Assembly (NCBI GenBank): GCA_965371225.1
Contig: CBDUXP010000064.1
Coordinates: 1 to 21,138 of the forward strand
Direction: 5' to 3'
From: CBDUXP01 sp965371225 [NCBI: uncultured bacterium]
Lineage (GTDB): Bacteria > Abyssobacteria > SURF-5 > CBDUXP01
Length of the DNA: 21,138 bases
The first letter of the stretch is position 1, and each line of letters opens with the position of its first letter. Positions 28 to 14,852 of this stretch are shown in pieces. Made by a program: the position numbers and the translations under genes. The notes below the pieces were generated by a model, which was not told the origin of the DNA, ran no database searches, and saw only the letters and a program-made list of their open reading frames with translations.

Positions 28-75
28 GGGCCGGTCTGAAGACCGGCCCCTACCGCAGGTTTTTTCAACAGCCTG
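28..75. repeat. Palindromic intergenic repeat (REP-like) beside a T-rich tail
   Basis: A perfect 9-bp inverted repeat (28-36 with 41-49, loop TGAA) is followed by CCCCTAC, then CCGCAGG, six Ts and CAACAGCCTGC. On the minus strand it directly follows the stop codon of the ABC ATPase gene. The GCCCCTAC end and the TTTTTCAACAGCCTGC block look like dispersed intergenic repeats that I recall from many high-GC environmental genomes, but copy number cannot be seen here. The stem could help terminate the ergothioneine operon, or a plus-strand gene lying before the window. The T run lies 10 bases after the stem, so it is not a textbook intrinsic terminator. Confidence 0.45.
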
Positions 76-849
76 CTAGGCATCGCCGACCACGCCCCCC
101 CGCCCGGCCGCGCGCTCGTGCTCCAGCAGCGCACGCACGTAAGCGTCCGCGGGGTTCGCGCCCAGCTCGCGCGGAGTGGCCACCTGCAGGATTCGGCCGT
201 GGCGCATCACAGCGATGCGATCGCCCAGCCGGAACGCCTCGGCGAGGTCGTGCGTGACCATCACCATGGTCTTGCTGAGCCGCTCCTTCAACCGCAGGAA
301 CTCGTCTTGCAGATCCAGCCGGGTCAGCGCGTCCACCGCGCCAAACGGTTCATCCAGCAGGATAACGTCGGGGTCGCCCGCGAGTGCGCGGGCGAACGCC
401 ACTCGCTGCCGCTGGCCGCCGGACAGTTCGCGCGGATGGCGTTCGCCGTATTCCGCCGGCTCCAGGTTTACCAGGCGCAGGAGTTCGTCCGAGCGCTCGC
501 GGCGCCGCGCGGGCGCCCAGCCGAGCAGCATAGGCACCAGTTCTACGTTGCGCGCCACGGTCCAGTGCGGCAGCAGCCCGCCTTCCTGCTGCACGTACCC
601 CAGGTGTCGCCGGAGGGCGATGGGGTCGGCGTCCCGCACCGGCCGGCCGCGCACGCGCACCTCGCCCACCGTCGGCTCGACCATCCGGTTGAACGTGCGC
701 AACAGGGTGGTCTTGCCGCACCCGCTCTCGCCGATGAGCATGACCGTCTCGCCCGGCGCGACGGCGAGGTCGACGCCGCAGAGCGCCTGGACCCCTCCGG
801 GAAATGTCTTGCCTACGCCGACCGCCTCGAGCAGCGGTTCAGGGCTCAA
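76..849 (-). CDS. ABC transporter ATPase, OpuCA/EgtV (osmoprotectant) family
   Basis: This 257-residue cytoplasmic ATPase would power an importer for a quaternary-amine-type substrate. Walker A (GESGCGKTT) is at residues 40-48, the Q-loop YVQQEGGLLPHWTV is near 85-98, the signature LSGGQ is at 142-146, Walker B ILLDEP is at 163-168 and the switch His is at 200. The Q-loop and LDEPFGAVDALTR pattern is typical of the OpuCA/ProV branch. The CBS domains often present at the C-terminus of OpuCA are absent. The start is TTG at 849, overlapping the DUF427 stop by 11 bases with GGGGAG just upstream, so translation is coupled. No permease or binding protein follows within the window. Ergothioneine importers (EgtUV) belong to this family, so its place at the end of an egtD operon suggests ergothioneine or hercynine transport. 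That substrate is inferred. Confidence 0.85.
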   Translation of the reverse strand: MSPEPLLEAVGVGKTFPGGVQALCGVDLAVAPGETVMLIGESGCGKTTLLRTFNRMVEPTVGEVRVRGRPVRDADPIALRRHLGYVQQEGGLLPHWTVARNVELVPMLLGWAPARRRERSDELLRLVNLEPAEYGERHPRELSGGQRQRVAFARALAGDPDVILLDEPFGAVDALTRLDLQDEFLRLKERLSKTMVMVTHDLAEAFRLGDRIAVMRHGRILQVATPRELGANPADAYVRALLEHERAAGRGGVVGDA

Positions 850-1123
850 CCGTGACTCCCCGCCAAAAGGCGATCATGTCTTTGATGTTCGCGGCCGCCT
901 CTTTCGGATCTGCGTAGTACCAGGCCGCGTCCGCGTTCTCCGCGCCGTCCACCACCAGCGTGTAGTAGTTCGCGGTCCCCTTCCAGCCGCACACCGTGGT
1001 CGTCTCGCTGGGCTTGAGATACTCCTGCTTCACGCTGTCGGGTGGGAAGTACGTGTTCCCTTCCACCGTCTCGAACGTGTCGCTCTCCGCAACAACCTGC
1101 CCATTCCAGTTCGCTCTCGGCAT
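839..1123 (-). CDS. DUF427 domain protein
   Basis: A 94-residue protein covering one complete DUF427 domain, the usual length for a stand-alone member. The conserved features are VAESDTFETVEGNTYFPP near the N-terminus, CGWKGTANYY at about 45-54, AAWYYADPKEAA at about 66-77 and a final FWRGVTVEP. The ATG at 1123 has a strong ribosome site (GAAAGGAG, 7 bases away). It sits 32 bases after the Mo-enzyme/desulfurase gene and overlaps the ATPase gene by 11 bases, so it belongs to the ergothioneine operon. The biochemical role of DUF427 is not known to me. The compact beta-fold suggests a small-molecule or partner-binding function. Reading upstream in the same frame gives a much longer ORF, but that part is a shadow of the preceding gene. 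Confidence 0.9.
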   Translation of the reverse strand: MPRANWNGQVVAESDTFETVEGNTYFPPDSVKQEYLKPSETTTVCGWKGTANYYTLVVDGAENADAAWYYADPKEAAANIKDMIAFWRGVTVEP

Positions 1124-1155: not shown

Positions 1156-4100
1156 TTAGCGGCACGCCACGAAGCGCACCGCGCTTTGACTGTCGCGTAT
1201 CACTTCGCCCAGCGCTTCGAGCGTGTAGTCGATATCCGCTTCTCCGTTCCCCACGCCCAACGAGAACCGGACCGCACAGTGCGCGGCCTCGTCGTCCAAG
1301 CCGATCGCCTTCAGCACGTGGGACGGGTCCGGGTTGCCGGACTTGCACGCCGACCCGGATGAAAAATACACCCCCAGGCGATCGAGAAACAACACCAGCG
1401 ATTCGCCGCGCATGCCGGGCAGCGTCATATTCAACGTATTTGGCAGCCGCTCGGTCGGATGGCCGTTCAGGCGCGCGTCCGGCACCAACCCCCGCACGCC
1501 GCGCTCCAGCCGGTCCCGCAGCGCCGCCACCCGCTCCATCTCCTTGTGGTTGAGCCGCCGCACGGCCAGCTCGCAGGCCTTGCCAAAACCGACGATGCCG
1601 GGCACGTTCTCCGTGCCGGAGCGCAGGCCCCGTTCGTGGCCACCGCCGTCGATTTGCGGCGCCAGGGCGATCCCGTACTTCAGGTAGAGCGCGCCGATGC
1701 CCTTCGGGCCGTGCAGCTTGTGCGCCGACACCGCAAGGAGGTCCACGTCCAGCTCCTGCACGTCGATCGGCATCTTGCCGAGGGCCTGCACTGCGTCCGT
1801 ATGGAACAGCGCACCGCCCTCGTGGGCGATCCGCGCCAGGTCGGCGATGGGTTGGATCGTGCCGACTTCGTTGTTCCCCAGCATGACGCTCACCAGGACC
1901 GTCTGCGGGGTCATGGCTGCTGCCAGTACCTCCGGCGCGAGCAGCCCGGTGGCGTCCACGGCCAGCACGGTCAGCGACCACCCTTCCGCCTCCAGCGCGC
2001 GGCAGGCGTTGAGAACGGCGGGGTGTTCGATCGCCGTCGTGATGAAGTGGTTCCCCGCCTCGCGCCGGGCGTACGCCGCCCCTTTGATCGCCAGGTTGTC
2101 CGCCTCACTGCCGCCGCCCGTAAACACGATCCGCCGCGCGGTGCAGTTCAGCGTCTGGGCCAGCTTGCGGCGGGCCGCTTCCACCGCATCGTGCGTCCGC
2201 GTGCCCTGGCTGTGAATGCTCGAGGGATTGCCGCACTCGTCCCGCAAATACGGCACCATGGCCTCCAGCACTTCGGGGTCCACGGCGCTGCTCGCGTTGT
2301 GGTCCAGATACACGTGCCGCATCGCCCGCGCCGGCTCTACGGGAGCGGCGGCAGCTTCGGATGCAGACTCGTCGCACGCAGCTTGCGGGCGCGCGGGTCC
2401 GGCCGCCCCGTCGCACTTCACCACCTCGCAGAGCAGCGCCTTGTAAACCGGAAAGCCGGAGATGGGATCGAAGCGCGCCAGGTCCGTCAGGTCATTGACG
2501 TTGGCTTCCTGCCACGCCTCGGAGCCCAACGGCCCGCCGCCGCCCATGTTCGCGTCGATGGCGCCTTCGATGATGTCCGCGGTCACCCGCGCGCGATACT
2601 TGACGCGACCGCGCGCCGTTTCCACGTACACCCAGTCGCCGTCCTCGATGCCGCGCCGCCGGGCATCGGCGACGTTCACGGTCACCTGCGGCTCGGGCGC
2701 GCGCCGGTTCAGGCCGGGCACCCCATGATGCTGGGAACGGAAATCGGTGAAGATGCGGGCGCCCGAGTTGAACACCAGCGGATACCGCTTCGCCAGGTCC
2801 GGCTGCGCGAGGGGCCCCTCCTTCGGCTCGGTGTAGACGGGCAGCGCGTCATACCCGTGCTCCTCGAGAATAGTGGAGGCGATTTCGAATTTCCCCGTCG
2901 GCGTATTGAACCCCGGCCGCCCGTCGGGCCGTAGCTGTCCCTTCTCCCACTTCTTGTACTGCATCATGACTGTGGGGATGCGCACTTCGCCGCCGGCGGC
3001 GCGCACGTCTTCCAAAGTGAAGCCCGAGCCCGCAAGCGCGTGCCGCAGCAGCTCCTCCTCCGACTGCGGGTAGCGGTCGCCGTACCCCAACCGCGCCGCC
3101 AGTTCCGCCATGACGAGGAAATCGTTGCGCGCCTCCCCCACCGGCTCGACCATCTTGTCGCGAATCTTGAAGAGCGGGCCGTAGATCATGTACGAAGTGA
3201 TCTCGTACATAGTCGTGGCGGGCAGCACGATATCCGCATAGGCGGCATCGGCCGTGAAGTATCGGTCGAGGGTCACCAGGAAATCGAGCGCGCCCAGCGT
3301 CTCGCGCCACAGGCTGGGGTTCGGCCACGCCGTAATCATGGAGCCGCCGTCGATAATCAAGGAGCGGATCTTGTAGGGCTCCCCCTTGAGCACCGAGTCG
3401 GGCAACGCGATGGCGTGCGACTCACCGCGGTACATGCTGTACACGGGAAACCGGTCGCGCCCCAGGGCCTGCCGCACGTCCGGATTCGGCACCAACCCCG
3501 CCCGGTTGATGGGAAACGTGTTCTCCCGCATGCGAATGACCAGACCGCCGGGCACGTCCAACTGCCCCGCCACGGCCCAGAGCGTGAACGCCGCACGGAT
3601 GGCCTGCACGCCGGAATCGGAATATTCCAAGCCCGTGTACATCACCGGGCAGGCCCCGCGCGCGCCGGCAATGCGGCGAGCGAGCCGGCGAACGGTCTCC
3701 GCCGGAACGCCGGTAATCCCTTCGACCACCTCGGGCCGGAAGTGTTGCACGTAGGTTTGCAATTCGACCCAACCCTCGGCCCAATTGGTCACGAAATCTT
3801 CGTCGTACAGTTCCTCCTCGACCAGCACCTGGAGCATGCCGAGCGCGAGGGCGCCGTCGGTGCCGGGCCGCAGGGGAATCCATTCCGCCTCGGTGTCGCG
3901 CGCCGTCTCGCTGCGGCGGGGATCGATCACGATCACCTCCGCGCCGCGCCGGCGCGCCCGCTTGATCTGCTCGTTGGCGAGCGGCGGCGAATCGGTCGCG
4001 GGATTTGCCCCCCACACGATGATGAGCTGCGCCTGCTCCAGGTCGGGATCCATGGTGATGTACATCTCGCCGAGCGTCACGTGCGGCGCGATCATGGCGA

Positions 4101-4596
4101 ACGAGACATAGCACAATGCGCCGACGCCCAACGTATTGGGGGAGCCGAAGGGAAAGAGCACACTGGAGGCGGAAGACACGGCCACCCCCGCCGGTTGAAA
4201 CACGTCGCAGAGCGCGAGTTCAAAGCTGCCGCGGCCCGTATAGATGGCGGTGGCTTCGGGACCGTGGGCCGCCTTGATCGCTTGCAGCCGCGTGACGATG
4301 GTGTCCATCGCCTCATCCCAGGAAATCCGCTCGAACTGGTACGTGCCCTTCGGGCCGACGCGCTTCAGGGGATGACGCAGCCGCTGCGGGTCATGGACAA
4401 TCTCACCGGAGTGCGCCCCGTTCGTGCAGATCATACCGAGCGGGTGGTCCGGAAGGGCCTGCGTGTGCGTGATCCGCCCGTCCTCCAGACGCAACCGGAC
4501 CCAGCACCCGGCCGGACAGATGCCGCAGAGCCCGTCGCGCGTTTCCACGGCGGGCGCCGGTGGCGCGGCCGCGGGAGACGCCGTCGCGCTAGGCAT
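1156..4596 (-). CDS. Molybdopterin oxidoreductase fused to cysteine desulfurase; probable metallopterin-dependent ergothioneine synthase
   Basis: A single 1146-residue protein with two enzyme modules. Residues ~22-725 form a bis-MGD oxidoreductase: [4Fe-4S] ligands C24, C27, C31 and C57, a molybdopterin core, probable Mo/W ligand C162 in GSPNTLGVGALCYVS, and the C-terminal dinucleotide-binding domain. A linker rich in Ala/Pro (about 730-757) leads to a complete NifS/IscS desulfurase (759-1146) with His858, Asp934, PLP lysine K960 in SAHK and catalytic C1084 in SSGSACKSG. No frameshift or internal ribosome site separates the two. The ATG at 4596 overlaps the egtD stop (ATGCCTAG) with AGAAGG upstream; an ATG 33 bases earlier is in frame but less likely. 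No Tat signal is visible, so it is probably cytoplasmic. I infer that cysteine sulfur is passed to the metal site and then to C2 of hercynine's imidazole, giving ergothioneine. The alternative is another Mo/W enzyme that sulfurates itself. Confidence 0.88.
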   Translation of the reverse strand: MPSATASPAAAPPAPAVETRDGLCGICPAGCWVRLRLEDGRITHTQALPDHPLGMICTNGAHSGEIVHDPQRLRHPLKRVGPKGTYQFERISWDEAMDTIVTRLQAIKAAHGPEATAIYTGRGSFELALCDVFQPAGVAVSSASSVLFPFGSPNTLGVGALCYVSFAMIAPHVTLGEMYITMDPDLEQAQLIIVWGANPATDSPPLANEQIKRARRRGAEVIVIDPRRSETARDTEAEWIPLRPGTDGALALGMLQVLVEEELYDEDFVTNWAEGWVELQTYVQHFRPEVVEGITGVPAETVRRLARRIAGARGACPVMYTGLEYSDSGVQAIRAAFTLWAVAGQLDVPGGLVIRMRENTFPINRAGLVPNPDVRQALGRDRFPVYSMYRGESHAIALPDSVLKGEPYKIRSLIIDGGSMITAWPNPSLWRETLGALDFLVTLDRYFTADAAYADIVLPATTMYEITSYMIYGPLFKIRDKMVEPVGEARNDFLVMAELAARLGYGDRYPQSEEELLRHALAGSGFTLEDVRAAGGEVRIPTVMMQYKKWEKGQLRPDGRPGFNTPTGKFEIASTILEEHGYDALPVYTEPKEGPLAQPDLAKRYPLVFNSGARIFTDFRSQHHGVPGLNRRAPEPQVTVNVADARRRGIEDGDWVYVETARGRVKYRARVTADIIEGAIDANMGGGGPLGSEAWQEANVNDLTDLARFDPISGFPVYKALLCEVVKCDGAAGPARPQAACDESASEAAAAPVEPARAMRHVYLDHNASSAVDPEVLEAMVPYLRDECGNPSSIHSQGTRTHDAVEAARRKLAQTLNCTARRIVFTGGGSEADNLAIKGAAYARREAGNHFITTAIEHPAVLNACRALEAEGWSLTVLAVDATGLLAPEVLAAAMTPQTVLVSVMLGNNEVGTIQPIADLARIAHEGGALFHTDAVQALGKMPIDVQELDVDLLAVSAHKLHGPKGIGALYLKYGIALAPQIDGGGHERGLRSGTENVPGIVGFGKACELAVRRLNHKEMERVAALRDRLERGVRGLVPDARLNGHPTERLPNTLNMTLPGMRGESLVLFLDRLGVYFSSGSACKSGNPDPSHVLKAIGLDDEAAHCAVRFSLGVGNGEADIDYTLEALGEVIRDSQSAVRFVACR

Positions 4597-5617
4597 GGCC
4601 GGCCGCCTTCTGGAGCAGGAGCAGGGCAAACCAGTCGCGGCCGTCAGTAAACACCTGTCGGGTGGTCAAGCCGTGGCGTGCGAGGGTAGGCACGAGGCTG
4701 GCCAAGTCGAATTTCCGGGAGATTTCCGTATGCACGAGTTCATTCGCGGCCACGCGGCAGGTGGTGTCCAGGGGGGCGACGTGAATCTCTTGCGCTTCTG
4801 CGAACCGGGCCCACGTCTCGATGCGGCTGCGGGCGATGTTGTAGCGCGAGACGTGCTCGATCGTGTCCACGTTGATGCTGGCGCCCAATTCGCGATTCAT
4901 GCGCGCGAACAGGTTGCGGGTGAACGCCTCCGTACGGCCCGCGGCATCGTTGTATGCCGCCTGGATCACCGCGGGATCTTTCACCAGATCGACGCCGAGG
5001 AGAAAGTAATCGTCCGGTCCCATGCTGGCGTGAATCCGGGTCCAGAACGCGTCCGCCGCGTCTTCATCGAAGTTGCCGATGCTACTGCCGAGGAAAATGA
5101 TCATCGCGGGCGAGAGGGCTTCGAGCACGGGCAGCGCGTGCTCGTACACGCCGTGGACGGGCGCCATGTCCACGTCCGGCAGCAGGGTCTCCAGCTCGTC
5201 TTGCGCCTGTTCGAGCGCCGCGCGGCTCACGTCGATGGGCACGTATGGGGCGGCGCCCGCATGACTGAGGTACGCACGCAGAATGTGTTGCGTTTTGGCG
5301 GAGGAGCCGGAACCCAACTCGACCAGACTCACCTCCCCAGTTGTGGCGGCAATGTCGGGCGCATGCCGGTGGAGAATCGCCGCCTCCGTCCGCGTGAGGT
5401 AGTACTCGGGCTGTTCGCAGATCCGGCCGAAGAGGGCGCTGCCCTCCGCGTCGTACAGGAAGCGGCACTCCAGTGTCTTCGGCTCCGCCTGCAGCCCGCG
5501 GGCCACGGAGTGCGCGAAGTCCATGACCGGATCGTCGTGCAGGCCTTCATCGATGACGACGATGCCCCCGTCCGCTTCCGCCGACGCCAATTGATCGGCG
5601 AGCCATTCGCTGTTCAT
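4589..5617 (-). CDS. egtD: L-histidine N-alpha-methyltransferase EgtD (hercynine synthase)
   Basis: A 342-residue SAM-dependent methyltransferase that would trimethylate histidine to hercynine, the first committed step to ergothioneine. The full family length is present. Features include YYLTRTE at 72-78, the SAM loop ELGSGSS at about 100-106, LGSSIGNF at 177-183 with N182, the substrate tyrosine Y222 in AYNDAAG, and TEISRKF at 297-303 with E298 and S300, matching the histidine-binding Glu and Ser of characterised EgtD. The ATG at 5617 is preferred because AGGAAGGG lies upstream; an in-frame ATG 51 bases earlier would add a family-atypical basic tail. The gene is first in the operon and overlaps the fused Mo enzyme by 8 bases. 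No egtB, egtC, egtE or rhodanese-type eanB lies nearby. Confidence 0.94.
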   Translation of the reverse strand: MNSEWLADQLASAEADGGIVVIDEGLHDDPVMDFAHSVARGLQAEPKTLECRFLYDAEGSALFGRICEQPEYYLTRTEAAILHRHAPDIAATTGEVSLVELGSGSSAKTQHILRAYLSHAGAAPYVPIDVSRAALEQAQDELETLLPDVDMAPVHGVYEHALPVLEALSPAMIIFLGSSIGNFDEDAADAFWTRIHASMGPDDYFLLGVDLVKDPAVIQAAYNDAAGRTEAFTRNLFARMNRELGASINVDTIEHVSRYNIARSRIETWARFAEAQEIHVAPLDTTCRVAANELVHTEISRKFDLASLVPTLARHGLTTRQVFTDGRDWFALLLLQKAAGHA

Positions 5618-6007: not shown

Positions 6008-7045
6008 CTACGCCGGCCCGTCCGGCAGCGGCCAACAGGGACGCACCGCCGCCACCCGCCCGCGCGCGCCCACGGCCGGGGCGTCCATCCCGCTTGCGGC
6101 CGCCATCACCTCGCCCCCGGGCATCCGGCAGGTCAGGCGGTAGCCCATCCCGTGGAACCGCCGCGCCACCACCTCCACCGCGCCGTCGGCCATGGCCACG
6201 AACCGGAGATCCTCCGGCCGTACCACCACCGTGACCGATCCCTGCGCCGGTTGCGCCAGCGGGATCGTGCCCCACGCCGTGTCCGCCTTATCGCCCGCCG
6301 CCGCGCCGGAGACGAACGCCGCCGGTCCCACCAGCGCCGCCACCTCCCGACTCGCAGGACGGGCGTACACGCGCTCGGGCGTGTCGCACTGCGCCACAGT
6401 CGCGCCGTCCGCGGCGGGCACCAGCACGGCCACTCGATCCGCCAACCCCAGCGCGTCGGTGCGATCGTGCGTCACCAAGAGCACGCTCGTGCCTTCCCGG
6501 CGCACCAGGCGCGCCAACTCCTCCGCCAAGGACTGGCGTAATGCGGCATCCACATTGGCAAACGGTTCATCCAGCAGGAGGATCCGCGGCCGGGGTGCGA
6601 GCGCTCGGGCGAGCGCCACGCGCTGTTGCTGGCCGCCGGAGAGCGCGTGGGGGCGCCGGTCAGCGAACGGCCCCATGCCGATCACGTGTAACAACTCATC
6701 GACACGGCCGTTGTCCGCTTGCCGGAGACCGAACGCGATATTCTCCCGCACCGTCAGCGCCGGGAACAGCGCGTAATCCTGAAACACCAACCCCACCCGG
6801 CGGCGCTCTACCGGCAGGAGATCGTGGCCGTCGCGCGCGGCGACTTGCCCCGCCAGCCGCACCATCCCCGCCACCGGCGTGACGAGCCCGGCGACGGCGC
6901 GCAAGAGGGTCGTCTTCCCACACCCGGACGGGCCGAGGACGGCCAGAAACTCGCCCGGGTGCAATATCAGATCCACGCCGGCCAACACCGGATGGGTCCC
7001 AAACGCGTGGCCCATCCCGCGGAGTTCGAGCGGCGGCTCAGACAT
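6008..7045 (-). CDS. fbpC: Ferric-iron ABC transporter ATPase, FbpC-like
   Basis: A 345-residue ATPase of the Fbp/Pot/Cys group. Walker A (GPSGCGKTT) is at 38-46, the Q-loop FQDYALFP is at about 88-95, signature LSGGQ is at 135-139, Walker B LLLDEPFANVD is at about 156-166 and the switch His is at 193. A C-terminal TOBE-like regulatory region (about residues 230-345) includes VVVRPEDLRF. It would power the two-halved permease encoded just upstream, whose stop codon it overlaps by 8 bases. The order of binding protein, permease and ATPase is that of fbpABC. Molybdate, thiamine or polyamine importers share this ATPase type. The iron assignment comes from the binding protein. As last gene of its operon it is followed by gene-free DNA. 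Confidence 0.85.
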   Translation of the reverse strand: MSEPPLELRGMGHAFGTHPVLAGVDLILHPGEFLAVLGPSGCGKTTLLRAVAGLVTPVAGMVRLAGQVAARDGHDLLPVERRRVGLVFQDYALFPALTVRENIAFGLRQADNGRVDELLHVIGMGPFADRRPHALSGGQQQRVALARALAPRPRILLLDEPFANVDAALRQSLAEELARLVRREGTSVLLVTHDRTDALGLADRVAVLVPAADGATVAQCDTPERVYARPASREVAALVGPAAFVSGAAAGDKADTAWGTIPLAQPAQGSVTVVVRPEDLRFVAMADGAVEVVARRFHGMGYRLTCRMPGGEVMAAASGMDAPAVGARGRVAAVRPCWPLPDGPA

Positions 7046-8657
7046 ACTGCCTCCAGCGCAGGCTGATCGCGACCACGCTGCACGCCACCGCCACCATCAG
7101 CAAGCCCGCCAAGCCGGCGTCGTGCAGAAACGCCTCCTGGTACCGGTCGTACACGCGGAAGCTCAGCGTGCGCAGGCCCATGGCCCCGCCTAGGAGCAGC
7201 GTGACCGGCAGCTCCTTAATCAGCGCGAGCAGGACGAGCACGAACGCCGCCGCGGTCCCCGGCGCGACCGCCGGCAGGGCGATCCGACGCAACCACTTAC
7301 CCCGGCTGACGCCGAGCGTCCGCGCGGACGCCTCCTGCCGCGGGTCCAAGTGCAACACCGCGGTCTTGAGGCTCGCATACGCTTCGGCCAGGAAGCGCAT
7401 GGCGTAGCCCAGCAAGAGCAGCACCCCACTGCCCGTCAGCGTCTGGTAGACGCCGCTGCCGCGTCCGAGGCCGCGCGAGACGAACAGCGCCGCCAGCATG
7501 AGGCCGAAGGCGAGTAACACGCCGGGCAGCGCGCTCGTAAGATACGTGCCCTGCTCGATGGCCCACGACAGGCGCGGCCCGCGCCGCGCACCGATCCACG
7601 CCGGCAGGAGAGCAAGCGCAACGGTGAACAGCGCGCCGACGCCGGCCGCCGCAGCCGTGTCGCGGAGCGGCACCCAGAGGCTCGCAAACGTTTCGTCATA
7701 GCGGATGCCGTCGCGTACCCAGACGAGCAGGGTGAGAATCGGCAGCGCGACGCCAAGCCCAATGACCGCCGCCTGCATGAGGTACGCCAGGGCGAGGGCC
7801 GCCGGCGTGAGCGTGCGCCGCGCGGGGGGGCGGGGGTTGCTGACCGTGCTCGCGCCCGGCAGCACGCCGTGGATCAGGCGCGCGCCCACGAGCAACGGCA
7901 CCGTGGCCCCCAACACCGCAAAGCCGAGCACCACTGCCTGGCCCAACTGCTGGTGGTCCGCCGCCTGGTACAGCCGCCACGTGAGCACCTGGCAATCCAG
8001 CACGGCGACCGCGCCAAAGTCGCTGATGACGTAGAGCGCCGTCAGCAGCAGACTGAACGCGAGCGTCGGGCGCAGGCGCGGCAGCACGACGGTGCGAAAC
8101 GTGCGCCAGCCGGAGGCGCCCAGACTCCGCGCCGCTTCCTCTTCGGCCGCGGACATGCGCGCGAGGGCGGCGCTCACCAGCAGTTGTACGTAGGGAATGG
8201 TGATGACCGTCAGCACGAGCGCGGCGGGCCAGAATCCACGGAACACGCCCAGGCCCAGGCTCCGGCCCACCAGCCCGCCCGGGCCGACGGTGTCGCGGAT
8301 CGTGCTCGCCACAAGATAGCTGGGCAGGGCGAGCGGCAGGAGCGTGAGGATGCCCAAGGCGCGCACACCGGGATAGCGCGCGCGCTGCTCGACCCACGCG
8401 AGCCAGGTGCCGCTCGGCAGCGCGGCGAGCGACACGACCGCCCCAAGTCCGAGCGTGCTCGCGAACAGGCGCCACACCCCGCTGCGCTGGATCAGGGCGG
8501 CGAAGGTGGCCGGGCCGGTGTGGAACGGAGTCGGCGGCGGGTGCAGCGCCCCGGCGATCAGCCCCCCGAGCGGGAGCAGCACCAGGAGCGTCACGGCCAC
8601 CGCGCCCGCGAGGGGCAGGCTGCGCAGCACGCGCGCGCGAGTGAATGCGTTCCTCAT
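7038..8657 (-). CDS. fbpB: Ferric-iron ABC transporter permease, FbpB-like (fused two-domain)
   Basis: A 539-residue inner-membrane protein built from two homologous permease halves, the standard size for FbpB. Roughly a dozen hydrophobic segments are visible. Each half has an EAA-type coupling loop that docks on the ATPase: EEEAARSLGASGWRTF in the first half and QEASARTLGVSRGKWL in the second. I chose the ATG at 8657, which gives a basic N-terminus (MRNAFTRARV) before the first membrane segment. An ATG at 8678 would add seven residues, and neither has a strong ribosome site. It lies 42 bases after the binding-protein gene and overlaps the ATPase gene by 8 bases, so the three genes form one operon. 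The permease half-fusion is normal for the family. Confidence 0.87.
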   Translation of the reverse strand: MRNAFTRARVLRSLPLAGAVAVTLLVLLPLGGLIAGALHPPPTPFHTGPATFAALIQRSGVWRLFASTLGLGAVVSLAALPSGTWLAWVEQRARYPGVRALGILTLLPLALPSYLVASTIRDTVGPGGLVGRSLGLGVFRGFWPAALVLTVITIPYVQLLVSAALARMSAAEEEAARSLGASGWRTFRTVVLPRLRPTLAFSLLLTALYVISDFGAVAVLDCQVLTWRLYQAADHQQLGQAVVLGFAVLGATVPLLVGARLIHGVLPGASTVSNPRPPARRTLTPAALALAYLMQAAVIGLGVALPILTLLVWVRDGIRYDETFASLWVPLRDTAAAAGVGALFTVALALLPAWIGARRGPRLSWAIEQGTYLTSALPGVLLAFGLMLAALFVSRGLGRGSGVYQTLTGSGVLLLLGYAMRFLAEAYASLKTAVLHLDPRQEASARTLGVSRGKWLRRIALPAVAPGTAAAFVLVLLALIKELPVTLLLGGAMGLRTLSFRVYDRYQEAFLHDAGLAGLLMVAVACSVVAISLRWRQYV

Positions 8658-8699
8658 ACATCCGCCGCCCAGCGCCATCGCGCCCGGCGAGTACGCACT

Positions 8700-9800
8700 C
8701 TACTGCAAGCCCAATTCCTGCAGCAGCGCCAGGGTCGGACCCACATCCGCAAGGAACGTCTGGTCGACTGCCGCCAGGTTGAGCTGCGCCAGCGGCGGCA
8801 CGTCCGGATGCGTGGGCACGCCTGGTCGTGTGGGGTATTCGAAGTTCTCCGCACTGAAGCGTTCCTGGACGGTCGCGCTAGTGAGAAACGCCATGAGGCG
8901 ATGCGCCGCCGCAACGCGGGGACTGCCCGTACGCACGCCGACGCCCGCGACCATAAGAATATTCCCCGCGTCGCCCGGCGTCGAGAAGCTGTAGTTCGCC
9001 GCGGCGAAGTCCGGCCTCTTCAGCCGGTGCAAGTAGTAATGATTCACCCACCCAATGGCAATCTCCCCGGCAGCGGCGGCGCGCACCTGCGGCGCATTCT
9101 TCGGATACACGATGGGGGCGTTCGCCTGCATGCCTTCCAGCCACGTGCGCGTCTTCGCCTCCCCCCAGAGGTGCCGCAGGGCGCTGATGTGCGCCTGGGC
9201 ACTGCTGTTACCGGGCGCCCACCCCAGGCGGCCCTTCCACTTGGGATCCTTCAGCTCCCACAACGTGGCCGGCAATTGGTCCGTCGCTACCAAGCTCGGG
9301 TTATAGACCAGCACGCGCGCCCGGCCACTCACCCCGATCCACCGCCCATGCGCATCGCGGAAACGGGGATCCACCCGGGTCAGCAGGTCCTGCGGCAGTT
9401 CCTGCAGGAAACCCCTCGCCGCCAGCGCGCCCAGGTAGCCCGAGTCTTGGAAAAAGATCACGTCGGCGGGACTGTCGGGCCCCTCGTTGAGCAGCTGGGT
9501 GGCCAACGCCGGCGTCTTGTTGTAGCGCACGTCCAGGCGGACGCCCGTGTCCGCCTCGAACGCCTCGAGGATCGGCCCCACCAGCGCCTCGCCCCGGCCG
9601 CAGTACACCACCAGCGCCGATTTCCCCGCGTGGGTCGGGCCGGCCCAGAGCAGGAGGAGCGCGGCGGGCAACACGCCACGCCTCAGGACGGCACCACAGG
9701 CGCGAATCGCGGTCACGAGCGCCAGCACCGCCGCGCGGCGCGCGTTGTGCCACAGACTTCGGAAATCCGTGACCGGTGGCTCCGTGTGTGCGAGGATCAT
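8700..9800 (-). CDS. fbpA: Periplasmic ferric-iron-binding protein, FbpA-like
   Basis: A 366-residue class II periplasmic binding protein. The N-terminus has a long basic/hydrophobic leader with RRGVLPAALLLLWAGPTHA at about 40-58, and likely signal cleavage after A58. The mature part begins GKSALVVYCGRGEALV, typical of FbpA/IdiA/FutA proteins. The paired tyrosines Y255-Y256 in WVNHYYL match the two Tyr ligands that bind Fe(III) in this family, which supports iron over thiamine or phosphonate. The start is uncertain: ATG at 9800 (AGAGG nearby) is preferred over an in-frame TTG at 9836. The leader is still longer than usual, so a later start is possible. It is first in the fbpABC operon and is divergent from the cyclase gene. 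A possible Fur box lies 55-70 bases upstream. Confidence 0.87.
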   Translation of the reverse strand: MILAHTEPPVTDFRSLWHNARRAAVLALVTAIRACGAVLRRGVLPAALLLLWAGPTHAGKSALVVYCGRGEALVGPILEAFEADTGVRLDVRYNKTPALATQLLNEGPDSPADVIFFQDSGYLGALAARGFLQELPQDLLTRVDPRFRDAHGRWIGVSGRARVLVYNPSLVATDQLPATLWELKDPKWKGRLGWAPGNSSAQAHISALRHLWGEAKTRTWLEGMQANAPIVYPKNAPQVRAAAAGEIAIGWVNHYYLHRLKRPDFAAANYSFSTPGDAGNILMVAGVGVRTGSPRVAAAHRLMAFLTSATVQERFSAENFEYPTRPGVPTHPDVPPLAQLNLAAVDQTFLADVGPTLALLQELGLQ

Positions 9801-9854
9801 GCGGCCTCTACGACCGCGGGCAGGCGGACCAGGCAATCCAACCGCGGCCTTATT

Positions 9855-10904: not shown

Positions 10905-11723
10905 CTATCCCCCGGGGGCGGGCTTCCCGCCCGGGTCGGCGGTCACGGGGTGGAGCGGTACCACGCTCAAGCCCGCGCCGCCGACTTGTACGCGGACCAC
11001 GGCGCGCACGCGGAAGTACCGCGCGAGATTGGCCTCGGTGAGTACTTCGTCGGGGGAACCCTCCGCGGCCACCGTCCCGTCGTACAGCACCACGATCCGG
11101 TCGCAGTACCGGCTCGCGAGGGACAGGTCGTGAATCGCCGCGAGCGCACACCGGCCAGCGCCGGCGATTCGGCGTACCAGCGTCATGACCTCCAACTGGT
11201 GCGCCAGGTCCAGATTCGCAGTCGGCTCGTCCAGCAGGATCACGGGCGTCTCCTGGGCGAGCGCGCGCGCCACCAGCACCCGCTGCCGCTCGCCGCCGGA
11301 CAGGGAATCGGCCGCCCGGTCGGCGAGCGCGGCCGTCTCCGTCTGCTCGAGCGCGCGCTCGACCACTTCCACGTCGTGCGCGCCCTCGGGCCGGAAGCGG
11401 CCCAGGTACGGGTTGCGGCCCATAGCCACCACTTCGCGCACCGTGAAGGCAAAGTCGATCCGCGCATCCTGCGGCACGAATGCCGCGCGCTGGGCGATCT
11501 GCCGCCGGCGCAGGCCGGCCACCTCCCCACCGCACAGGGTCACGCTGCCCTGCTGCGGCCGGAGCAACCCGAGCAGGATGTGCAGCAGCGTCGTCTTCCC
11601 CGCGCCGTTCGGCCCCACCAAGCCAACGACCTCATTCTCGTTCACGTGCAGGGACACGCCCCGCAGCACCGGCCGCGCGGCATAGGCGAACGCCAACTGC
11701 CGCGCCTCCACCAGCGCCGCCAT
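10905..11723 (-). CDS. BtuD/FecE/FhuC-type ABC transporter ATPase
   Basis: A 272-residue ATPase of the cobalamin/siderophore/heme import group. Walker A (GPNGAGKTT) is at 38-46, the Q-loop FVPQD is at about 82-86, GRNPYLGRF is at 102-110 (typical of FecE/BtuD), signature LSGGE is at 141-145, Walker B VILLDEPTANLD is at 161-172 and the switch His is at 198. The last ~35 residues form a proline/glycine-ending extension. The ATG at 11723 shares one base with the permease stop (TGATG), so the two are coupled. It is last in a six-gene operon. A longer frame continues upstream but only shadows the permease gene. The substrate is not set by this subunit. Confidence 0.88.
   Translation of the reverse strand: MAALVEARQLAFAYAARPVLRGVSLHVNENEVVGLVGPNGAGKTTLLHILLGLLRPQQGSVTLCGGEVAGLRRRQIAQRAAFVPQDARIDFAFTVREVVAMGRNPYLGRFRPEGAHDVEVVERALEQTETAALADRAADSLSGGERQRVLVARALAQETPVILLDEPTANLDLAHQLEVMTLVRRIAGAGRCALAAIHDLSLASRYCDRIVVLYDGTVAAEGSPDEVLTEANLARYFRVRAVVRVQVGGAGLSVVPLHPVTADPGGKPAPGG
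10911..10935 (-). terminator. GC-rich hairpin at the end of the btuFCD operon (weak terminator candidate)
   Basis: A 7-bp GC stem (10916-10922 with 10926-10932, loop CTT) extends by three more pairs past a two-base bulge. It overlaps the last codons of the ATPase gene, between the convergent cyclase and btuD ends. No run of T follows on either strand, so intrinsic termination is only a possibility. Confidence 0.25.
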
Positions 11724-12757
11724 CAGCTCAAGTGCTCCCGCCGCCGCGTGGTGAGCAGATACAGGAAGAAGGGCGCGCCCACGCACGCGGTGACGATGCC
11801 CAGCCGAATTTCCTCCGGCGCGATCAAAGTCCGCGCCAGCAGATCGGCCAACACTAGGAAACTCGCCCCCGCCGCCATGGACAGCGGCAGGAGCCACCCG
11901 TGCCGCGGCCCGCTCACCAGGCGGATCATGTGCGGGATGACCAGCCCTACGAAGCCGATGACCCCGGACACCGCCACCGCGACGCCCGTCACGAGAGCGG
12001 CGGCGAACAGCAGCGTGCGCCGCACGCGCGGCACGTCGACGCCGACGGACGCGGCGTGCGTTTCGCCCAGCAGGAGCGCGTCCAGCTCGCGCGCGTGCGC
12101 CACGATGACCGCCGCCCCCAGCAGCGTTGCGGGCGCCACCATGCGCACGTGATCCCACGTGCGGCCGTCGAGGCCCCCCATGAGCCAGAAGATCGTTTGG
12201 CGCCCGATCTGGTAGTTGGCCAGCGCCAGGGAAATGACGAACGAGGTGAGCGCCGCGTTCAGGCTCCCCACGGCAATCCCCGCCAGCAGGAGCGTGCCGA
12301 TCGTAGCCTGCCCCCGGTAGGTGGCGATCGCGTACACCACGAAAGCGGTCACGCCCGCGCCGAGGAACGCGAGGCCGGGCAACGCCCAGACCGTGCGCGC
12401 TGCGAAGCCAAGGTGCAGCGCCACCACCGCGCCCAACGACGCGCCGGCCGATACCCCGATGACCCCCGGGTCGGCCAGCGGATTCCGGAAGAGGCCCTGC
12501 AGCGCCGCGCCGCTCACGGCCAGCCCCGCGCCGACGCATGCCGCCACCAACACGCGTGGCAAGCGCACATCCACGATGATCGTGTCGTGCCACGCGGGAA
12601 AGGTACGTTCGAGTGGCGCCCCCAGCGCATGCAGCAAGATCGCGACGATCTCACCCGGCGCGAAGTCCGTCGCGCCCACGGACACGGCGGCCCCCATCGC
12701 CGCGACCAACACGGCCATCGCGCCGGCCGCCACGAGGACGCCGCGCCACGGCCTCAC
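11723..12757 (-). CDS. BtuC/FecCD-type ABC transporter permease
   Basis: A 344-residue inner-membrane protein with about ten hydrophobic segments, full length for the FecCD family. Recognisable family blocks are RLPRVLVAACVGAGLAVSG, QGLFRNPLADPGVIGVSAGAS, WLMGGLDGRTWDH and the C-terminal GFVGLVIPHMIRL, followed by ISVAP-like APEEIRLGIVTACVGAPFF. I chose GTG at 12757, which overlaps the binding-protein stop as GTGA. The in-frame upstream extension is a basic, low-complexity shadow of that gene. It shares one base with the ATPase start downstream. Substrates of this family include vitamin B12, heme and ferric siderophores, and the sequence alone does not choose between them. Confidence 0.9.
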   Translation of the reverse strand: MRPWRGVLVAAGAMAVLVAAMGAAVSVGATDFAPGEIVAILLHALGAPLERTFPAWHDTIIVDVRLPRVLVAACVGAGLAVSGAALQGLFRNPLADPGVIGVSAGASLGAVVALHLGFAARTVWALPGLAFLGAGVTAFVVYAIATYRGQATIGTLLLAGIAVGSLNAALTSFVISLALANYQIGRQTIFWLMGGLDGRTWDHVRMVAPATLLGAAVIVAHARELDALLLGETHAASVGVDVPRVRRTLLFAAALVTGVAVAVSGVIGFVGLVIPHMIRLVSGPRHGWLLPLSMAAGASFLVLADLLARTLIAPEEIRLGIVTACVGAPFFLYLLTTRRREHLS

Positions 12758-13743
12758 GTGTCGAACGCCTCCGGGTGCAGTATCCGCGCCACCTGTTCGA
12801 AGCCGTGGACCGCGTATTGCGACAAGGTCACCGTCCACGCGCTGTTGAGTACGTGCACGCGACCGTGCTGCACCGCCGGCACGTGTTGCCACAGGGGATC
12901 GTCAGCCAGCGAAAACGGTTGCCCCGGCGCATCGGCCGGCCGCCAGTCCGGCACGAACACCACCTCCGGCGCGAGGCCGATGGCCAGTTCGAGGGGAATC
13001 GCCGCTTGCCCGCGCAGCCCCGCTTCGCGCGCCACGTTGTGGCCGCCCGCACGTTCGATGATCTCGTCCATCAACGTATCGCGGCCGGACGTGAACCCGC
13101 CGAAGACGAAGTAGAGCACCCGCGGCTTTGGCCGGCCGGCGACGCGGCGATCCACCTCCGCCAGGCGGCGCTCCATGTCGCGCACCAACTCGGCCGCGGC
13201 CGCGTCCGCCCCCACGGCCGCCCCCGCCGTGCGCACGTTCCGCGCCACATCGGCGAACGACCCGTAGCGTCCGAAGCGCAGGACGGGAATCCCCAGGGAC
13301 AGGAGAAAGCGCACGGTCTCGGCCCGGGTGTAATCCGCCACCACCACCAGGTCCGGTTCGAGGCGCACCAGCGTCTCGATGGTCGAAGATATCCGCTCCG
13401 CGTTCGGCGGCGCGAGGTCCACGCAATTGGAAATCGCGGGATCGTCGATCAAATGGGTGACGGCGACGAACCGGTCGGGCGGCACGAGGGCGGTGAGAAT
13501 CTCGTCCCCGAGCAGCACGCTCGACGCGATCCGCTGCGGCGGCCGCGCCATCTCCTGCGAAATGCCGAGGGGGTCCACCAGGGTACGCGGGAAGGCGTCG
13601 CCGATGATGACCGTGTCGCGATACGCGTCCGAGAAGAGGACTCCACCGCCCGGCGCGCCGCCTGCCGCCAGCGCCCCGATTCCCGCGAGCGCCAACCCCA
13701 AGCTGAGCGCGGCGGTGCCGGAGAGCCGTCGGCCTCCGCTCAT
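12754..13743 (-). CDS. BtuF/FecB-type substrate-binding protein
   Basis: A 329-residue class III periplasmic binding protein. Residues ~1-33 form a signal peptide (basic MSGGRR, then an Ala/Leu/Gly-rich core), and no lipobox Cys is seen. The first lobe carries PQRIASSVLLGDEILTALV, ISSTIETLVRLEPDLVVV and a helix-backbone region with VLRFGRYGSF. The second includes GRDTLMDEIIERAGGHNVA, a strong BtuF/FecB signature, and ALAPEVVFVPD-like IGLAPEVVFVPDW. The ATG at 13743 overlaps the upstream gene stop as ATGA. The four-base overlap with the permease start confirms one operon. Ligand could be cobalamin, heme, a siderophore or another large organic molecule. The coupling to metabolic genes upstream hints at an unusual ligand. 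Confidence 0.88.
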   Translation of the reverse strand: MSGGRRLSGTAALSLGLALAGIGALAAGGAPGGGVLFSDAYRDTVIIGDAFPRTLVDPLGISQEMARPPQRIASSVLLGDEILTALVPPDRFVAVTHLIDDPAISNCVDLAPPNAERISSTIETLVRLEPDLVVVADYTRAETVRFLLSLGIPVLRFGRYGSFADVARNVRTAGAAVGADAAAAELVRDMERRLAEVDRRVAGRPKPRVLYFVFGGFTSGRDTLMDEIIERAGGHNVAREAGLRGQAAIPLELAIGLAPEVVFVPDWRPADAPGQPFSLADDPLWQHVPAVQHGRVHVLNSAWTVTLSQYAVHGFEQVARILHPEAFDT

Positions 13744-14852
13744 CCGGCGGGGTCCATCAAGCCCGTGAAGCCGGAGGGCGCGTGCGGGCCGATCACCAGT
13801 TGCTCCAGCAGGCCGATGCCGGTGCGCTCCCCCATCTGCGCGCGGCAGAGTTGTTGCACGTGCACGTGAAACGGGGCCATGGGATCCAGGTCGGCCAGGA
13901 TCCACGATTCGCCCGACACCGCCGCTTCACCCTTCCACACCCCGTGCCCCCACTCCGGATGCAGGTAGCCCAGGCCCAACATCTGAAACGTCAGCAGGGG
14001 CTCCAGCGAAATCACCCGCGCCTCCCCCGCGTGGGGCGTCAGGGTCAGTTCAGCCGAGGCCGCACGCCGCGTGCCCGGCTGCCAGCGCACGGCGTGCGCA
14101 ACCGACGCCATGCGTTCGATGGCCGGCACGGCGCTGGGCGCGGCGGCATCCGCATAGACCGGCGCGACGCTGCCGCTGGCGTGCCACGGCCGACCGTCCG
14201 CGGCTTCGTTCACGGCGAAGTGGGCGCACACGTCGTCGAACTGGAGCGGCGCCCAGAGCCAGAAGAACTGCGGCGGCGTCCCCGGCGCGCCCGCCTCCCG
14301 TTCCCCCACCGGGCGGATGCCCCACGACCGGTCCCGGGTGCCGAGTATGGTCGCATCATCCAACACGATGCGCTTGCCGTCGACTTCGAGCCAGCCGTCC
14401 CACGAGCCAAACTGCGTGTAGCGCGTGTAATCGAGAAACAGGCGGCCGTCGATGCGATGGGTAAACCGGGGCTCCTCGATGGCCGGGGTGCGCGCGCGAA
14501 AGCGCAGGTCGCCGGTCAGTCCGAAATCGTTGTCGCTGATGCGCACGCGGAGAGTGTGCAGGGGCTCCTCGACCGCGACCGCGATGGGACCGACGGTAGT
14601 GTCCGCCCGTTCCGCGGGCGCGAGCCGCGACGCGCGCACGGTGTGCTGCCGCCCGTCGCAGACCACGCTGAACGCGGCATCCATCACCTGCCGATTCGGG
14701 TACAGGCCGAGCGCGGCCCCGAACATCAGGTCACCGGCGCGGCTGAAGCCGTTAAAAAAATACCGGTCGTAGAAGTTCCGGTCGCCGGTGGCCACGTGGG
14801 CGAGGGGCTCCGGCGTCTGATGGATGAGGTGCTCGTCGAAATGCGTCAGCAC
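13740..14852 (-). CDS. DUF7064/DUF7065-type (AttH/CrtC-like lipocalin-fold) protein
   Basis: A 370-residue protein without an obvious signal peptide or membrane segment. It starts HFDEHLIHQTPEPL, followed by NFYDRYFFNGFSRAGDLMFGAALGLYPNR, the pattern of a family of double-lipocalin proteins distantly related to AttH and hydroxyneurosporene synthase. Near the middle, RYTQFGSWDGWLEVDGK, TRDRSWGIRPVG and FFWLWAPLQFDD are further family hallmarks. Members often lie beside ACAD10-like phosphotransferases and acyl-CoA genes, as here, but no reaction is established to my knowledge. The start is GTG at 14852, only three bases after the preceding stop, with AGGGGTG as ribosome site. The last four bases overlap the binding-protein start, so it is coupled to the importer. 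Hydrophobic-ligand binding or modification is an inference. Confidence 0.75.
   Translation of the reverse strand: MLTHFDEHLIHQTPEPLAHVATGDRNFYDRYFFNGFSRAGDLMFGAALGLYPNRQVMDAAFSVVCDGRQHTVRASRLAPAERADTTVGPIAVAVEEPLHTLRVRISDNDFGLTGDLRFRARTPAIEEPRFTHRIDGRLFLDYTRYTQFGSWDGWLEVDGKRIVLDDATILGTRDRSWGIRPVGEREAGAPGTPPQFFWLWAPLQFDDVCAHFAVNEAADGRPWHASGSVAPVYADAAAPSAVPAIERMASVAHAVRWQPGTRRAASAELTLTPHAGEARVISLEPLLTFQMLGLGYLHPEWGHGVWKGEAAVSGESWILADLDPMAPFHVHVQQLCRAQMGERTGIGLLEQLVIGPHAPSGFTGLMDPAG

Follow-up and report, generated by a model that had tools for sequence, protein, structure and literature searches.

An operon predicted to make ergothioneine without dioxygen, with a DUF427 gene that recurs near ergothioneine genes

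An oxygen-independent route to ergothioneine is that of Caldithrix abyssi and its relatives, where EgtD is paired with a fusion of the type named metallopterin-dependent ergothioneine synthase (MES), a class published in 2022 with the same architecture as the protein described below (PMC9516567). That source reports 55 genomes in which MES adjoins the methyltransferase gene, and production of ergothioneine in E. coli by four MES homologues. Mutants C153S, K952A, C1074S and C1135S of the Caldithrix enzyme (CaMES) made almost no ergothioneine, while loss of C1097 only halved production, and the sulfur transfer is reversible (PMC9516567). The EanB and EgtB routes share with MES the EgtD-made precursor and the final product, and differ from it in that EanB is a rhodanese using polysulfide and EgtB a sulfoxide synthase depending on dioxygen and iron.

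The locus that concerns us lies in a window of 21,138 nucleotides (the whole stretch of DNA that was analysed), where egtD precedes a gene for a fusion that is, judged from its sequence, a member of the MES class, known since 2022, and not the founder of a new class. The earlier note on this DNA had named a metallopterin-dependent ergothioneine synthase of Caldithrix abyssi: that enzyme is real, and is MES itself (PMC9516567). We hold it very probable, on the basis of sequence comparison, that the operon would make ergothioneine without dioxygen via EgtD and MES; that this would be a complete route we infer from homologues. The features are these:

4589 to 5617, minus strand: egtD, L-histidine N-alpha-methyltransferase, 342 aa (PF10017, TIGR03438, alignment to 4uy7)
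1156 to 4596, minus strand: predicted MES, a fusion of 1146 aa (domains, residues, tree)
2377 to 4596, minus strand: bis-MGD/[4Fe-4S] module, MES residues 1-740 (cluster cysteines C24, C27, C31 and C57, metal ligand C162; phmmer)
1156 to 2313, minus strand: NifS/IscS-type cysteine desulfurase, MES residues 762-1146 (K960, C1084, and an ...RFVACR tail with C1145)
839 to 1123, minus strand: DUF427 protein, 94 aa, third gene of the operon (PF04248, 3.5e-33)
76 to 849, minus strand: ProV-like ATPase of a quaternary-amine ABC importer, 257 aa (PF00005, 2.7e-34)
28 to 49, minus strand: perfect stem-loop with 9-bp arms and a 4-nt loop, 3' of the ATPase stop (read directly and from folds)

The open frame of the fusion extends from the first TTG over 1156..4629 (minus strand); translation probably begins at the ATG at 4596, for a protein of 1146 aa. 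With this start the numbering of C24, C27, C31, C57, C162, K960 and C1084 proposed earlier is exact, and so is the overlap of 8 bases, ATGCCTAG, between the MES ATG and the egtD stop (egtD 5617..4589, fusion ATG 4596). A gap of 32 nt separates the MES stop from the DUF427 start, and the TTG start of the ATPase, if right, overlaps the DUF427 stop; the stem-loop at 28..49 has no T run. All four genes of the operon, from egtD to the ATPase, have a third-position GC of 0.83-0.88, for a window GC of 69%. A Pfam scan of 28 distinct ORFs of the window (taken from 85 ORFs of at least 100 aa, plus DUF427) gave no sulfoxide-synthase, amidotransferase or rhodanese domain, which we take to be the domains of EgtB, EgtC and EanB, and the sole class-V aminotransferase domain among them, of the EgtE-like fold, is the fusion's own. 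The claim that the window holds no egtB, egtC, egtE or eanB thus stood for these 28 ORFs, the fusion's Aminotran_5 aside. Two features go beyond the earlier note: the conserved C-terminal C1145, and an operon that runs on into DUF427 and the ABC ATPase.

A single chain carries, in this order, Molybdop_Fe4S4, Molybdopterin, Molydop_binding and Aminotran_5 (the last at 2.5e-78). Among the best 25 of 48 NCBIfam matches, the top one is NifS TIGR03402 (1.1e-147, under its equivalog cut-off), and oxidoreductase models match at sub-threshold level only. The best phmmer match of the Mo module in the PDB is acetylene hydratase 2e7z (E 4.4e-71), C162 aligning with Cys138 in chain numbering, a cysteine metal ligand that we take to be Cys141. 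No PDB chain covers both modules among the best 60 of 89 matches at E <= 1e-20, which are separate desulfurases or Mo enzymes. An AlphaFold model built from 26 aligned fusions reached a mean pLDDT of 72.9 and a pTM of 0.53, with values below 50 over residues 122-185, that is, the metal-site region including C162.

The likeness to CaMES covers the domain order, the [4Fe-4S] and metal-ligand cysteines, the PLP lysine, the two essential relay cysteines and the egtD partner. C24, C27, C31, C57 and C162 are the equivalents of CaMES C14, C17, C21, C48 and C153; K960, C1084 and C1145 those of K952, C1074 and C1135, the last being the essential relay cysteine; and C1107 corresponds to C1097. Successive gaps between these nine residues are 3, 4, 26, 105, 798, 124, 23 and 38 in the window, against 3, 4, 27, 105, 799, 122, 23 and 38 in CaMES, as computed from published residue numbers, not from the sequence. 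Differences lie in the GC-rich context (69%), in the nearest relatives of the enzyme, two Acidobacteriota MAG proteins, in the 8-base overlap with egtD, and in the presence of DUF427 and the ABC ATPase downstream in the operon.

A genome scan, from which the best 80 of 117 relatives were taken, provided 51 MES-like fusions (L001-L051), 44 of them full-length single ORFs, six cut by contig ends and one split between frames, the remaining 29 of these 80 being distant Mo enzymes or plain desulfurases. We aligned 56 full-length fusions, namely that of the window, the 44 single-ORF ones and 11 from two phylum searches. The sites without variation (56/56) are the cluster cysteines, C162, K960, C1084, C723 and C1145; C1107 is a cysteine in 54/56, and the spacing C1084-C1107-C1145 (23, 38) is identical to that of CaMES in all 56. 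Assignment to MES follows from the full-length match to these 44 + 11 fusions and from the nearly identical spacing of the nine CaMES positions. A tree, quickly built and with long branches to the outgroup, unites the 56 fusions with support 99 and groups the window protein with L001 and L002, the two Acidobacteriota proteins, about 77% identical to it, with support 100. The protein thus falls among MES fusions, and the outcome that the earlier note would have taken as a refutation, a Mo domain inside a reductase clade unlinked to egtD, did not appear. Of the suggested 'new lineage' of a rare class, membership in the class stands, while separateness has to be qualified, the nearest relatives being Acidobacteriota and Gemmatimonadota MAGs. 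A rare class of metallopterin enzymes forming C-S bonds, reported in 2022, is widened to an operon whose closest enzymes are those of these two phyla.

MES is rare in the phylum samples, both drawn from larger groups: at E <= 1e-180 it is found in 9/298 genomes of the L003 phylum sample (Gemmatimonadota) and in 8/396 of the L001 phylum sample (Acidobacteriota), the latter eight including G044, cut by a contig end, G680, matching from residue 359 on, and G383, without the desulfurase.

With acetylene hydratase (2e7z) and thiosulfate reductase (2vpw) the window protein shares the DMSO reductase fold family and the cluster motif, and with the former also a cysteine metal ligand; the fused desulfurase sets it apart from both. 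The position of the catalytic Asp of acetylene hydratase, Asp13, is Pro28 in the window and Pro, Ser or Ala in 56/56 fusions, which argues against a hydratase activity. With IscS and NifS the desulfurase shares K960, C1084 and the fold family, and it differs from them by the extra ...RFVACR tail with its invariant cysteine and by the fused Mo module.

The chemistry would run as follows. EgtD would trimethylate histidine to hercynine (TMH), whose imidazole ring MES would then sulfurise at C2, with L-cysteine as the donor. The cysteine would be activated by PLP on K960, C1084 would take the persulfide, and the flexible C-terminal C1145 would carry it to the metallopterin module. There it would restore the terminal sulfido ligand on a bis-MGD-bound Mo or W that C162 coordinates, and TMH would then attack that sulfide. 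That the window copy is active, which of the two metals it holds, and the detail of the cycle are presumed here by analogy, and the catalytic cycle is a proposal in PMC9516567 as well.

A further cysteine, C130, is conserved in 61/62 of the fusions that cover the position (55/56 full-length, 6/6 partial) and is a candidate for an extra relay role. It is replaced by N in L034 and in L098, where the desulfurase is not fused, and L053, a stand-alone Mo protein, also has a cysteine there in a loose alignment. L034:7956-11393 (+), from a MAG with no EgtD detected, is the sole full-length fusion of the 56 without C130. We also considered C723 as a relay cysteine; it is not specific to MES, since five of six aligned stand-alone Mo proteins have it (the exception being L061). 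Together, C130 and C1145 would mark out a route for sulfur that lends itself to testing by mutants.

The methyltransferase itself is clearly identified: the window EgtD scores 336 bits against PF10017 (cut-off 23) and 322.5 bits against TIGR03438 (cut-off 290.9), and in the alignment to M. smegmatis EgtD (4uy7) the six histidine-binding positions, which we take to be Y39, Y56, N166, Y206, E282 and S284, are identical. When fusions next to egtD were looked for across genomes, along the lines of the earlier note, the gene lay in the flanks of 34/51 fusion loci among the best 80 of 117 relatives. PF10017 is found in 44/50 MES genomes (counts over 50 genomes leave out L051), 42 of them at E <= 1e-56 and two, G015 and G038, as short partial matches; it also matched 2/14 control genomes at E <= 0.001. 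The 6/50 MES genomes where PF10017 found no EgtD are all MAGs, and incompleteness may account for the absence. In the EgtD tree the window falls in a set of 16 rows (100/100) without L001 and L002, whose EgtDs belong to another set (100/98) though their MES are the closest to that of the window; the simplest reading would be an exchange of the partner methyltransferase on at least one occasion. EgtD matches also occur in open frames of 820 and 666 aa (L107:5535-7994 (+), G023 C36), either possible fusions or mere frames.

It might be asked whether the substrate that the fusion sulfurises is some other imidazole or betaine, or whether the reverse reaction is its main one, egtD then serving a related histidine betaine. 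The reversibility of the CaMES reaction (PMC9516567) speaks for this, as do L098, without a fused desulfurase, and L034, without C130, both from genomes without a detected EgtD, so that other roles may exist in the family at large. Yet five more fusion genomes without a detected EgtD keep C130, which makes the link between that residue and EgtD loose, and the window copy retains every residue shown to be needed for forward synthesis, has C130 as well, and overlaps egtD; for the window we therefore judge this reading improbable. Still less credible is a Mo module acting as an ordinary reductase or formate dehydrogenase, with the fused desulfurase sulfurating its cofactor once, in the manner of FdhD or ABA3 maturation: desulfurases do sulfurate Mo cofactors (PMC9516567) and similarity to the Fdh, PhsA and DmsA models is significant, but it is sub-threshold, with scores far under the curated cut-offs, the architecture is kept in the 44 full-length single-ORF fusions with egtD near 34 of the 51, and the Mo site of the CaMES K952A mutant is still active (PMC9516567).

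The relative just mentioned, L098 (genome G383), deserves a word of its own. Its stand-alone Mo module (L098:6918-9098 (-), an open frame of 727 aa with 56% identity to the window) keeps the cluster cysteines and C162, with C130 changed to N, and a tandem DUF427 follows downstream (L098:5151-6224 (-)); about 5 kb away, a permease-SBP/ATPase pair is encoded on the opposite strand, and EgtD was not found in the G383 genome. With the desulfurase not fused and the CaMES reaction reversible (PMC9516567), this suggests, as a lead only, ergothioneine breakdown or another sulfur donor.

Reading the operon as one for ergothioneine synthesis via EgtD and MES, we come to its third gene, which, beside the candidate relay cysteine C130 and the oxidase-family and EgtB genes of MES genomes, is what is new here: a DUF427 gene in the operon, recurrent near ergothioneine genes. 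PF04248 is present in 12/50 MES genomes. It lies near MES or egtD in 5/12 of these (L033, L036, L040, L045, L046), in differing gene orders, the window being a sixth case, and 7/12 show no DUF427 neighbour in the loci examined. The neighbour clustering is used for its EgtD, DUF427 and ABC rows only, shadow ORFs over MES crowding the rest, and some neighbour offsets are artefacts of stop-to-stop frames.

Co-occurrence extends to the phyla of the MES-bearing genomes. EgtD is found in 47/52 genomes with DUF427 against 72/246 others in the L003 phylum sample (odds ratio 22.7, p 1e-16), and in 46/49 against 46/188 in the L001 phylum sample (odds ratio 47, p 1e-19), by Fisher tests in which relatedness and aerobic lifestyle are uncontrolled. 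In the L003 sample DUF427 is near egtD in 7/47 genomes holding both: directly 3' of it in G124, G233, G292, G330 and G221, whereas in G342 and G154 it precedes egtD by about 0.2-1 kb. By coordinates, none adjoins egtD in the L001 sample. In G124, G233, G292 and G330 egtD is preceded by an EgtB gene that scores over cut-off, the contig of G221 beginning at egtD; what follows DUF427 is an FMN oxidoreductase in G292 and, in G124, G233 and G330, a flavin disulfide reductase. In the EgtD tree the EgtDs of the five tight linkages share one clade, so that these linkages are not five independent events. Recurrence beside MES/egtD and egtB-egtD may be followed at 839..1123 (-) of the window, L033, L036, L040, L045, L046 and L110-L116.

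In the library searched, no paper mentions DUF427 together with ergothioneine; PMC6316151, considered as a DUF427 paper, contains DUF4278 instead. We found a single relative with a solved structure, 3djm, which adopts a beta-tent fold, lacks a zinc site and has no assigned function (PMC4287342). We would tentatively propose, as an idea with perhaps slightly more against it than for it, that this beta-tent protein (PF04248) is dedicated to ergothioneine in both the EgtB and the MES routes; serving routes with and without dioxygen, it would act on ergothioneine or hercynine itself, by binding, carrying, reducing or recycling, and not in sulfurisation. DUF427 and the ABC ATPase would, as we infer, act on product or precursor. 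The recurring neighbour gives a domain of unassigned function a concrete, cheap test.

MES hosts have been described as exclusively anaerobic (PMC9516567). At the gene level this looks too strong, a claim to be qualified and not overturned: PF00115, the heme-copper-oxidase family, is over cut-off in 35/50 MES genomes, 29 of these having a best match at E <= 1e-90, and in 8/14 control genomes too. As the family includes NO reductases, and as strict anaerobes can carry oxidases, this result concerns gene content, not lifestyle. That several genomes with the Acidobacteriota and Gemmatimonadota enzymes closest to the operon also encode oxidase-family genes is relevant to the question of why a dioxygen-free synthesis of ergothioneine exists. 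The EgtB model TIGR03440 matches 32/50 MES genomes at E <= 0.001, over cut-off in two only, G008 and G025; in G025 egtB is beside egtD on a contig of 18.9 kb and MES on one of 61.2 kb. These two MAGs (loci L117 in G008, L118 in G025) may combine dioxygen-dependent and dioxygen-independent routes, or be contaminated.

As for transport, the ATPase of the window matches proV TIGR01186 at 2.3e-80, under cut-off. An EgtU transporter beside MES was considered; of such a system the window has the ATPase only. Permease-SBP fusions of L008 and L098 have the TMD-SBD architecture of EgtU, and we claim no ergothioneine specificity for them because other proteins match better: A. fulgidus ProX for L008 (1.3e-46, against 6.5e-27 at best for EgtUC), and choline/acetylcholine-type proteins for L098 (acetylcholine-sensor binding proteins at 6.2e-50, against 2.3e-35 for EgtUC). 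At L008:11494-13886 (-), the OpuAC and permease fusion goes with an ATPase and is convergent with MES, as a quaternary-amine importer, not clearly EgtU. Upstream of egtD, the window carries a second ABC importer (6008..9836, minus strand), with a TOBE-bearing ATPase, a two-domain permease and an SBP_bac_6-type binding protein, matching 2-aminoethylphosphonate/thiamine-like models under cut-off, and further on (10905..13905, minus strand) an ABC ATPase ORF of 562 aa beside a Peripla_BP_2 binding protein, by family an importer of the siderophore/B12 type.
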